Source: Komagataeibacter nataicola
GTDB lineage: Bacteria > Pseudomonadota > Alphaproteobacteria > Acetobacterales > Acetobacteraceae
Length of the DNA: 64,000 bases
Reading direction: 5' to 3'
Assembly (NCBI RefSeq): GCF_003207795.1
Contig: NZ_NIRT01000003.1
Span: 62,001-126,000, forward strand
Shown: positions 6,601-8,271 of the stretch, piece after piece
How the letters are laid out: each line of letters opens with the position of its first letter
Position numbering within the stretch: position 1 is the first letter of the stretch
Position numbers and translations under genes: made by a program
Notes under the pieces: generated by a model
The model's input: the letters and a program-made list of their open reading frames with translations, nothing else
Database searches by the model: none
What the model was told of the DNA's origin: nothing

Positions 6601-7404
6601 ATGCAGGGGCGTATTCTCATCATGGCGGGCAGCGATAGCGGGGGTGGTGCCGGCATCCAGGCCGATATCAAGACCGTAACCGTGCTGGGCGGCTTTGGCA
6701 TGACCGCCATCACCGCGCTGACCGCGCAGAACACGCTTGGCGTGCAGGCGGTCATGCCAGTCTCCCCGGCCTTTATCGTGGCCCAGATGCGCTGCGTGAT
6801 GGATGATCTGGGGGTTGATGCCTTCAAGAGCGGCATGCTGGACCGGGCGGAGGTGATCGAGGCGATTGCCAATGTGCTGCTCACCAGCGCCGATATTCCC
6901 TACGTGCTCGATCCGGTCATGGTGGCGAAGGGGGGGGCTGCGCTACTGCATGATAGCGCGCTGGCCACGCTGAAGGCGCGGCTGCTGCCGCTGGCCACCG
7001 TGCTGACCCCCAACATCCCTGAAGCCGAGGCCCTGCTTGGCCACGGCATTGCCGGGCGCGCCGAGATGGTGCCCGCAGCCCGTGCCCTGCTGGCGCTCGG
7101 GCCGCGCGCCGTGCTGCTCAAGGGCGGCCATATGGAAGGCGATGAACTGCTGGACGTGCTGGTGCAGGCCGATGGCACGGTACAGGAATTCGTGAGCCGG
7201 CGCATCCACACCCGCCATACGCATGGCACCGGCTGCACACTGGCCAGTGCCATCGCCACGGGGCTGGGACAGGGCATGAGCCTGCCTGACGCCGTGATCC
7301 GTGCGCGGGACTATGTGCTGCGCGCCATTGCGGCCGCACCTGGCTATGGCGCGGGGGCTGGCCCGCTGAACCATGGTGCGGGCGGCATGGCATTAGGACA
7401 TTAA
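6601..7404 (+). CDS. thiD: Hydroxymethylpyrimidine/phosphomethylpyrimidine kinase ThiD
   Basis: Phosphorylates HMP and HMP-phosphate to HMP-pyrophosphate for thiamine synthesis. The ribokinase-fold protein of 267 aa begins ILIMAGSDSGGGAGIQADIK, as is typical of ThiD. It carries VLDPVMVAKGG, PNIPEAEALLG, LLKGGH and the anion-hole/catalytic motif HGTGCTLASAIA. It follows glmM by 3 bases. The stop codon overlaps the first half of a CtrA-type TTAA-N7-TTAA box. Confidence 0.95.
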   Translation: MQGRILIMAGSDSGGGAGIQADIKTVTVLGGFGMTAITALTAQNTLGVQAVMPVSPAFIVAQMRCVMDDLGVDAFKSGMLDRAEVIEAIANVLLTSADIPYVLDPVMVAKGGAALLHDSALATLKARLLPLATVLTPNIPEAEALLGHGIAGRAEMVPAARALLALGPRAVLLKGGHMEGDELLDVLVQADGTVQEFVSRRIHTRHTHGTGCTLASAIATGLGQGMSLPDAVIRARDYVLRAIAAAPGYGAGAGPLNHGAGGMALGH

Positions 7405-7415
7405 TAATTCATTAA
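7401..7415 (+). promoter_or_regulatory. Perfect CtrA-type box TTAA-N7-TTAA
   Basis: TTAA at 7401-7404 and TTAA at 7412-7415 are separated by the seven bases TAATTCA, exactly the Caulobacter CtrA consensus. The box overlaps the thiD stop codon and lies about 130 bases before the start of the CtrA paralogue, in an AT-rich stretch. The low GC content raises the chance of a random match, so the functional claim is an inference. Confidence 0.45.
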
Positions 7416-7542
7416 TAAAATAATTGTCATTATATTTATTATCTTTATGAAAGAATAGTAATATATAAACAACTTTAGGTTGTTTAATGCGTTCCGCACA
7501 CTTATAGGTAGATGTAGTGTAAATATCTACTGGATGGTCGAT

Positions 7543-8271
7543 ATGCGGATTTTGCTTGTAGAGCCCAATGCCCGGAAAGCCGAAGAGACCACCCGGCATA
7601 TGGAGAGGGCCGGATTTACAGTAGATCATGTTGATACGGGGCATGATGCACTGGGAATGTTAAAATCCTATAATTATGACCTTGCGGTCATGGAGGTGCG
7701 GCTGAAAGATCTCGATGGATTCGAGGTCATCCGGGTCAGTCGCGTCGCAAGGGTGCCCACGCCCGTGCTGGTCCTGTCAGATGAGCGGGAGGACACCACA
7801 AAAGTAAAGGCCTTCTCCACCGGGGCGGATGATTATGTGACCCGCCCCTACGAATCGATGGAACTGACAGCGCGGATGCAGGCAGTCATCCGCCGCTCAA
7901 AGGGGTATAGCGAGCCGACCCTGCGCGCGGGGCCGCTTGAGCTGTGCCTCGATAGCCGCACGGTCAGCGTGCAGGGGCACTGTGTGCATCTGACCGGCAA
8001 GGAATACATGATTCTGGAACTGCTCCTGCTGCGCAAGGGCATGGTCCTGACCAAGGATGCCTTCCTCAACCACCTGTATGGCGGGATGGATGAGCCGGAG
8101 ATGAAGATTATCGATGTGTTTATCTGCAAGCTGCGCAAGAAATTGCATGTTGCGGGCGCGGGGCAGCTCATTGCCACGGTGTGGGGGCAGGGCTATGTGC
8201 TGCGTGATGGCACACCGACCCTGCCCGCCGCACCTTTTGGTGCGCCGCTGACACAGGTAACGGCTGCGTGA
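7543..8271 (+). CDS. CtrA-family response regulator with degenerate receiver (Glu at the phospho-acceptor site)
   Basis: 242 aa. The C-terminal winged helix is almost CtrA itself: HLTGKEYMILELLLLRKG, then FLNHLYGGMDEPE and IIDVFICKLRKKL, ending TVWGQGYVLRD. It should recognise TTAA-N7-TTAA sites. The N-terminal receiver (MRILLVEPNARKAEE) aligns without gaps to CtrA, but acidic residues 8-9 are Pro-Asn, the phospho-acceptor Asp51 is Glu (YDLAVMEVRL), and the conserved Lys is Arg101 (TRPY). It therefore probably cannot be phosphorylated in the usual way. The start is chosen where CtrA homology begins; TTG 7480 and ATG 7534 are in frame upstream. There is a 20-residue unconserved tail. No kinase gene is adjacent. 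Confidence 0.9.
   Translation: MRILLVEPNARKAEETTRHMERAGFTVDHVDTGHDALGMLKSYNYDLAVMEVRLKDLDGFEVIRVSRVARVPTPVLVLSDEREDTTKVKAFSTGADDYVTRPYESMELTARMQAVIRRSKGYSEPTLRAGPLELCLDSRTVSVQGHCVHLTGKEYMILELLLLRKGMVLTKDAFLNHLYGGMDEPEMKIIDVFICKLRKKLHVAGAGQLIATVWGQGYVLRDGTPTLPAAPFGAPLTQVTAA

Follow-up and report, generated by a model that had tools for sequence, protein, structure and literature searches.

CtrA, the textbook example of a cell-cycle regulator controlled by phosphorylation in Alphaproteobacteria, receives its phosphate from the phosphotransferase ChpT. An engineered form of CtrA with glutamate at the acceptor position, D51E, is termed phosphomimetic (PMC12186491). Natural regulators of related type have been described as well, namely the aspartate-less OmpR/PhoB regulator ChxR of Chlamydia (PMC3960148, PMC4395418) and HP1043 of Helicobacter, an OmpR-type orphan regulator described as phosphorylation-independent (PMC4395418, PMC12632262). 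Glutamate is the commonest substitute among aspartate-less receivers (26%), and an Asp-to-Glu exchange alone is often insufficient for constitutive activity (PMC4395418). All papers are cited here for the excerpts available to us.

As for the relay itself, its members have been reported missing to varying degree, with chpT not found, in a cluster of Rhodospirillales (PMC2877005), and among Rhodospirillales genomes ctrA, gcrA, and ccrM occur in 72 to 82% and chpT, cckA, and divL in 27 to 36% (PMC8116508). The terms "d51," "receiver," and "phosphorylation site" are absent from the available text of PMC2877005, as is the word CtrA from that of PMC12632262, which reviews pseudo-receivers. A K. xylinus clpP paper cites Caulobacter CtrA in its discussion, in the part available (PMC12733265); in the titles and abstract beginnings of the open-access literature, we found nothing treating CtrA of acetic acid bacteria. 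Relay loss is known in outline and the kind of protein is known; the matching change in CtrA was not found in open-access print. Here we describe a ctrA gene from a 64,000-nucleotide stretch of the Komagataeibacter nataicola genome (referred to as the window).

RESULTS

The only CtrA found in the genome carries an altered pocket

The open reading frame is intact and encodes a protein of the OmpR/PhoB type, with a receiver followed by an OmpR-type winged helix (Table 1). Compared with Caulobacter CtrA, identity is 41% over residues 1 to 118, 65% over residues 125 to 222, and 51% overall, and the best NCBIfam model by far is that of CtrA, NF045991, at 303 bits versus a cut-off of 350, the short name of the model pointing to Rhodobacterales. 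Codon reading confirmed the preliminary description of the protein as having Glu51, Pro8-Asn9, and Arg101 at positions of the phosphorylation pocket. The nearest CtrA sequences are those of K. xylinus and K. melomenusus, and since loci of these species (L009, L010, L011, and L017) carry the same three-part set, a lone sequencing error is excluded.

Table 1. Features of the ctrA locus, in window coordinates
Feature	Position	Strand	Remarks
TTAATAATTCATTAA, perfect TTAA-N7-TTAA CtrA box (predicted)	7401..7415	+	142 bases upstream of start codon
CAACTTTAGGTTG, short palindrome in ctrA promoter	7470..7482	.	identical in 15/15 Komagataeibacter rows; in 0/26 other named acetic acid bacteria
TATAGGT, likely -10 element (inferred)	7503..7509	+	conserved in upstream alignment of 13 Komagataeibacter rows
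In-frame upstream ATG, alternative ctrA start	7534	+	
ctrA, sole CtrA orthologue found in genome	7543..8271	+	242 aa; Pfam Response_reg + Trans_reg_C
Receiver domain, residues 1-118	7543..7896	+	fold predicted intact; phospho-pocket lost
Pro8-Asn9 codons, replacing acidic pair	7564..7569	+	read from ORF
Glu51 codon GAG, phospho-acceptor position	7693..7695	+	read from ORF
Arg101 codon CGC, replacing conserved Lys	7843..7845	+	read from ORF
Winged-helix DNA-binding domain, CtrA type, residues 125-222	7915..8208	+	Caulobacter identity 65%; DEPEMKIIDVFICKLRKKL stretch

The protein had been labelled a paralogue of CtrA, and this label has to be dropped, as the search of the genome (3.67 Mb, estimated completeness 100%) turned up no second CtrA. 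The best of 13 further matches is 35% identical. Around DEPELKIIDVFICKLRKKL, the window protein agrees with the CtrA recognition stretch almost residue for residue, and this stretch is present in none of the seven other source-genome regulators compared. We therefore take the window protein to be the organism's CtrA; it occurs as one copy and, on the gene tree, falls among the CtrA of other Acetobacteraceae. That it should be a specialized companion of a canonical CtrA is, on these findings, scarcely credible, even though a divergent second CtrA-like gene does occur elsewhere in the family, in genus g58, at 43 to 45% identity to the window protein. These second copies (L293, L294, and L295) have Asp51 but lack Lys101, and the acidic pair is missing in L294 and L295, the ones that were aligned.

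Position 51 and the pocket vary among acetic acid bacteria

Over 80 named loci, position 51 is occupied by Asp in 48, by Glu in 31, and by Asn in 1. Glu51 is found in all 12 Acetobacter loci, all 10 Gluconacetobacter loci, all 4 loci of the Novacetimonas group (one of which bears the title Gluconacetobacter entanii), and 4 of 12 Komagataeibacter loci; the remaining case is L078, a metagenome bin outside the acetic acid group. Conservation of Glu51 among orthologues, which the preliminary description had proposed as a check, thus holds in the related genera and only partly within Komagataeibacter, where 7 of the 12 named loci carry Asp51 and one (K. rhaeticus) carries Asn51. Because sister Komagataeibacter carry these residues, Glu51 cannot by itself account for constitutive activity, and the eight loci argue that glutamate at this position is not required in the genus. 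The same description had turned on whether relatives pair Asp51 with an intact pocket. Within the genus they do not: the Asp51 and Asn51 loci have a broken pocket, all 12 named loci sharing Glu7, Pro8, Asn or Val9, and Arg101.

Acetobacter presents a different picture, with 11 of 12 loci having Glu51 while both acidic residues and Lys101 remain. Taken together, the loci form a graded series, from ChpT with an intact pocket, through Glu51 on an intact pocket (these 11 Acetobacter loci) and Glu51 on an eroded pocket (Gluconacetobacter and the Novacetimonas group), to the mixture of Glu, Asp, and Asn in Komagataeibacter. We selected 126 rows for a quickly built gene tree, on which Komagataeibacter (11 rows, node value 100) is nested in a group with Novacetimonas (15 rows, 97), and this group in turn in one that also takes in Gluconacetobacter (25 rows, 99). 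Outside these groups, Glu51 is seen in L180 and L188 of genus g81 and in L214/L078. By parsimony, the tree requires 10 gains or losses of Glu at this position, though the number may be too high where forks are poorly resolved. Named loci and genome-set loci overlap (L012 and L156, for example, are one record), so the rows of the tree, the residue counts, and the upstream alignment are not all separate genomes.

Two further observations concern the same set of proteins. The C-terminal Ala-Ala of CtrA, which we take to be a possible ClpXP tag, is present in 54 of 79 ChpT-positive Asp51 rows versus 19 of 66 Glu51 rows and is not uniform in Komagataeibacter. Of all receivers seen, those of a set of CtrA-like proteins on a very long tree branch (L144, L145, L148, L149, L150, L152, and L153, from genera g68, g96, and g24) are the most degenerate: position 51 is Arg or Ser, Ala79 and Leu98 are present, and Lys101 is missing.

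ChpT is undetectable in the source genome and 38 named acetic acid bacteria

The ChpT profile PF10090, which matched 1 of 14 control genomes (Caulobacter), had matches in 137 of 220 Acetobacteraceae genomes (132 above the curated cut-off) and none in the source genome or three congeners. Among 50 named genomes, for which completeness figures are not given, ChpT was found in seven, all of them with Asp51, and was matched in none of the 38 from Acetobacter, Gluconacetobacter, the Novacetimonas group, and Komagataeibacter. It was also unmatched in L039, L048, L050, L055, and L071, all with Asp51 and the latter two with an intact pocket. L055 is a bin titled Asaia bogorensis whose CtrA is almost identical to that of a bin titled Nitrosovibrio and far from those of acetic acid bacteria; both bins are probably mislabelled.

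A second profile, built from ten Acetobacteraceae ChpT proteins, was run on 80 genomes. It returned 101 to 194 bits in six of seven PF10090-positive controls; the seventh, G009, a weak PF10090 positive, reached 22 bits with the family profile, and some weak PF10090 positives, G009 among them, are not ChpT. Of the 73 PF10090-negative genomes, the family profile recovered one, G164, which scored 175 bits and has an intact CtrA pocket. In the remaining 72, no score exceeded 46 bits, and the hits fell mostly in frames of more than 390 residues; in the source genome, the score was 20.9 bits, to a 716-aa frame on contig C18 that holds a hybrid kinase. The Caulobacter CckA core found no match in the source genome at 1e-30, and this core does not discriminate among hybrid kinases. 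We discarded CckA as a relay marker because the core matches 183 of the 220 genomes at 1e-30, often many times.

To relate ChpT to the state of the pocket, we called a pocket intact when it has Asp or Glu at residues 8 and 9, Asp51, and Lys101. From the 137 positives, 80 CtrA were chosen (strong hits, short frames, listed CtrA coordinates), with G164 added later; the 83 PF10090-negatives provided 67 CtrA sequences, that of the window included, while G101 and G136 were omitted in spite of their listed CtrA and the remaining 14 yielded no CtrA at the search thresholds. Three fragments (L140, L142, and L151) and a second copy (L154) were excluded from the comparison. Of the ChpT-positive Acetobacteraceae genomes, 79 of 81 have an intact pocket, versus 5 of 62 ChpT-negative ones. 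Asp or Glu is found at residue 8 in 80 and at residue 9 in all 81 of the ChpT-positive set, in which L214 (G133), with Glu51, and L245, with Asn8, are the exceptions. Restricting the ChpT-negative set to the 54 genomes at least 95% complete, the window not being among them, leaves a single intact pocket, in L139 (G013, 99% complete); completeness is 73 to 90% for the other four.

Asp51 occurs in 13 of these 54 rows, 12 times on a broken pocket, and position 51 was therefore not everywhere the first to break; Gly8 accompanies Asp51 on the broken pockets of L164, L167, L168, and L187. On the gene tree, ChpT undergoes about three changes, which yield one to three independent pairs, a number insufficient for a sign test. 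The association between ChpT and the pocket thus appears strong in its counts, with few independent events behind it.

The loss of acceptor and pocket had led to the earlier proposal that the protein probably cannot be phosphorylated, and the failure to find ChpT strengthens it. An alternative would be that acetyl phosphate or a direct kinase still phosphorylates CtrA, either at Asp51 in those Komagataeibacter that carry it or at a different residue. This alternative could draw on the Asp51 of 7 of the 12 named Komagataeibacter, on an aspartate at position 56 in 61 of 62 Glu51 rows, and on the histidine kinases that remain in the source genome, one of which was read. However, none of the 12 named Komagataeibacter loci retains the acidic pair or Lys101, and no ChpT was found, either with PF10090 in the named genomes of this group or with the family profile in the source genome. 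Moreover, Asp56 is equally conserved in ChpT-positive rows (78 of 79) and is thus not a new phosphorylation site. We consider continued phosphorylation very unlikely.

The receiver is kept under purifying selection

In the predicted structure, a normal receiver is followed by a winged helix (mean pLDDT of 85; for the receiver, above 90 in 9 of the first 12 ten-residue blocks), and the receiver superimposes on the CtrA receiver of PDB 4qpj_C with 1.0 Å over 118 columns. The receiver fold is thus predicted to be kept without the acceptor aspartate, as in aspartate-less regulators. PDB 2hqr, which was part of the structure comparison, is presumably HP1043.

The dN/dS ratio of the receiver was 0.10 in Komagataeibacter, 0.06 in Acetobacter, 0.07 in Gluconacetobacter, and 0.15 in ChpT-positive pairs; for the DNA-binding domain, the corresponding values were 0.07, 0.04, 0.08, and 0.15. 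These values are Nei-Gojobori pairwise averages calculated without a tree (9, 9, and 7 genus rows plus 1945 ChpT-positive pairs), with dS of the pairs near or above 0.4 to 1.1. By this measure, the receiver is under purifying selection.

This selection bears on the idea that ctrA, once the relay had gone, began to decay and is now being lost, for which several observations might speak: no CtrA match was obtained at 1e-41 in 13 of 39 ChpT-negative genomes examined, the receiver of L142 (G032) is split over two frames with Ala at position 51, the match in K. rhaeticus L046 comes in two segments, and that in L017 ended at residue 207. (In three congeners of G032, the CtrA receiver lies in one frame; the L142 split may be real or an assembly error.) Nonetheless, dN/dS of 0.04 to 0.10 in both domains across three acetic acid genera disfavors a pseudogene, 11 of the 12 named Komagataeibacter loci gave a single tblastn segment, and the ctrA promoter is conserved in this genus. 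Decay therefore strikes us as highly improbable.

What the receiver has kept can be narrowed down further by comparing 48 of its positions that are at least 95% conserved in ChpT-positive genomes. Over 35 of the 38 named acetic acid loci (L011, L016, and L025 were omitted), mean retention is 0.36 for four pocket positions, 0.85 for the rest of the receiver, and 0.95 for the DNA-binding domain, and it reaches 1.00 for seven positions that we assume to form the alpha4-beta5-alpha5 dimer interface and that are kept in 35 of 35 rows. A 57-row version of this comparison is biased in its pocket value because rows with an intact pocket were left out. Asp96, Asp97, Glu107, Arg117, and Arg118 are also kept in those rows checked in which position 51 is Arg, Ser, Ala, or Asn. 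Tyr98 is found in all 62 rows of the main Glu51 set, whereas the 79 ChpT-positive Asp51 rows are divided between Phe (62) and Tyr (17). Pocket aside, the receiver would thus seem to be kept for something.

One such role could be that of a pseudo-receiver gated by a ligand or partner, the altered pocket binding a small molecule or protein that switches CtrA in place of constitutive dimerization. Purifying selection on the receiver would agree with such gating, as would the pocket residues shared by 12 of 12 named Komagataeibacter loci (Glu7, Pro8, Asn or Val9, and Arg101). Among genera, however, the pocket residues vary, which does not suggest one common ligand, and we regard gating as unlikely, albeit the most serious of the alternatives.

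A CtrA box in the ctrA promoter of Komagataeibacter

A perfect CtrA box lies upstream of ctrA in 13 of 15 Komagataeibacter rows (including L012 and L156, the one record counted twice), its half-sites constant and its spacer variable in the upstream alignment. None of the 26 further named acetic acid bacteria that were checked has a perfect box within 350 bases of ctrA. At the inferred TATAGGT promoter, a scan with the sigma-70 consensus made no call.

Genome-wide, perfect boxes showed no excess over the reversed pattern, numbering 21 versus 31 in the source genome and 9 versus 18, 12 versus 14, and 6 versus 16 in three congeners. As boxes are outnumbered by the reversed pattern in all four genomes, no wider CtrA regulon can be named. 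Ten of the 21 source-genome sites are on contig C8, which by its look alone we take for a plasmid. Seven TTAA-N7-TTAA matches crowd into about 400 bases there (L105, C8:26496-26896) amid dense short GTTA-type repeats, and they are probably plasmid repeats, not CtrA sites. Another match (L112, C9:75984-75998), also present in two congeners, lies upstream of a gene read as panB; it was set aside as a CtrA site, since it sits inside a TGTGATA/TATCACA palindrome and looks like the site of another regulator.

DISCUSSION

We think it likely that the single CtrA of this organism turned into an aspartate-less, phosphorylation-independent regulator as its relay was lost, and CtrA in the source genome and many relatives probably works without a phosphate switch. 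A phosphorylation-independent regulator would also be the best reading of the earlier suggestion of an activator or repressor of this kind; we assign neither role.

As to the course of events, ChpT would have been lost first, and Asp51 would then have changed to Glu in a pocket that was otherwise whole, as it still appears to be in Acetobacter; Glu51 fits such a phosphomimetic step, which was apparently relaxed later. The pocket would have eroded afterwards, leaving position 51 in Komagataeibacter free to be Glu, Asp, or Asn. CtrA may dimerize through the kept interface and bind TTAA-N7-TTAA DNA, both without phosphorylation, and its output would accordingly be set by amount and not by the phosphorelay; control may thus have moved to the amount of CtrA, for which the box in the Komagataeibacter ctrA promoter would be autoregulatory. 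The broken pocket in 12 of 13 near-complete ChpT-negative rows with Asp51 counts against one fixed order of loss. We are tentative about the account in full, by which, after loss of ChpT, Asp51 gave way to Glu more than once, the pocket eroded and Asp or Asn was regained, and a CtrA that kept dimerization and DNA binding is constitutively competent and controlled by amount only; it is possible, but somewhat more doubtful than not.

A CtrA that is retained and selected, yet seemingly cannot be switched by the relay, constitutes a natural experiment on a regulator outliving its kinase, and the acetic acid group offers a graded series for the loss of its pocket. The change also bears on cellulose-producing strains, in which we know of no described CtrA regulon.

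How does this CtrA compare with known systems? For the degenerate CckA-ChpT-CtrA relay of Rhodospirillales, the loss of chpT has been reported, and the available parts of these reports do not mention a corresponding loss in CtrA (PMC2877005, PMC8116508). HP1043 is likewise of OmpR type and belongs to a different lineage and gene. ChxR shares with the window CtrA both the OmpR/PhoB type and the glutamate at the acceptor position, but it is not a CtrA, and its phosphorylation independence was measured, whereas that of the window CtrA is read from sequence. The D51E form of CtrA has the same exchange, on an otherwise intact pocket as in 11 Acetobacter loci; the natural exchange, in contrast, is common to several genera, and in Komagataeibacter the pocket is altered as well and position 51 is variable. 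Finally, the window CtrA resembles the CtrA of Caulobacter and other Alphaproteobacteria in domain order, DNA-binding domain, recognition stretch, and, in Komagataeibacter, a box in its own promoter, and it departs from them in having neither acceptor aspartate, acidic pair, nor Lys101, alongside an undetectable ChpT.
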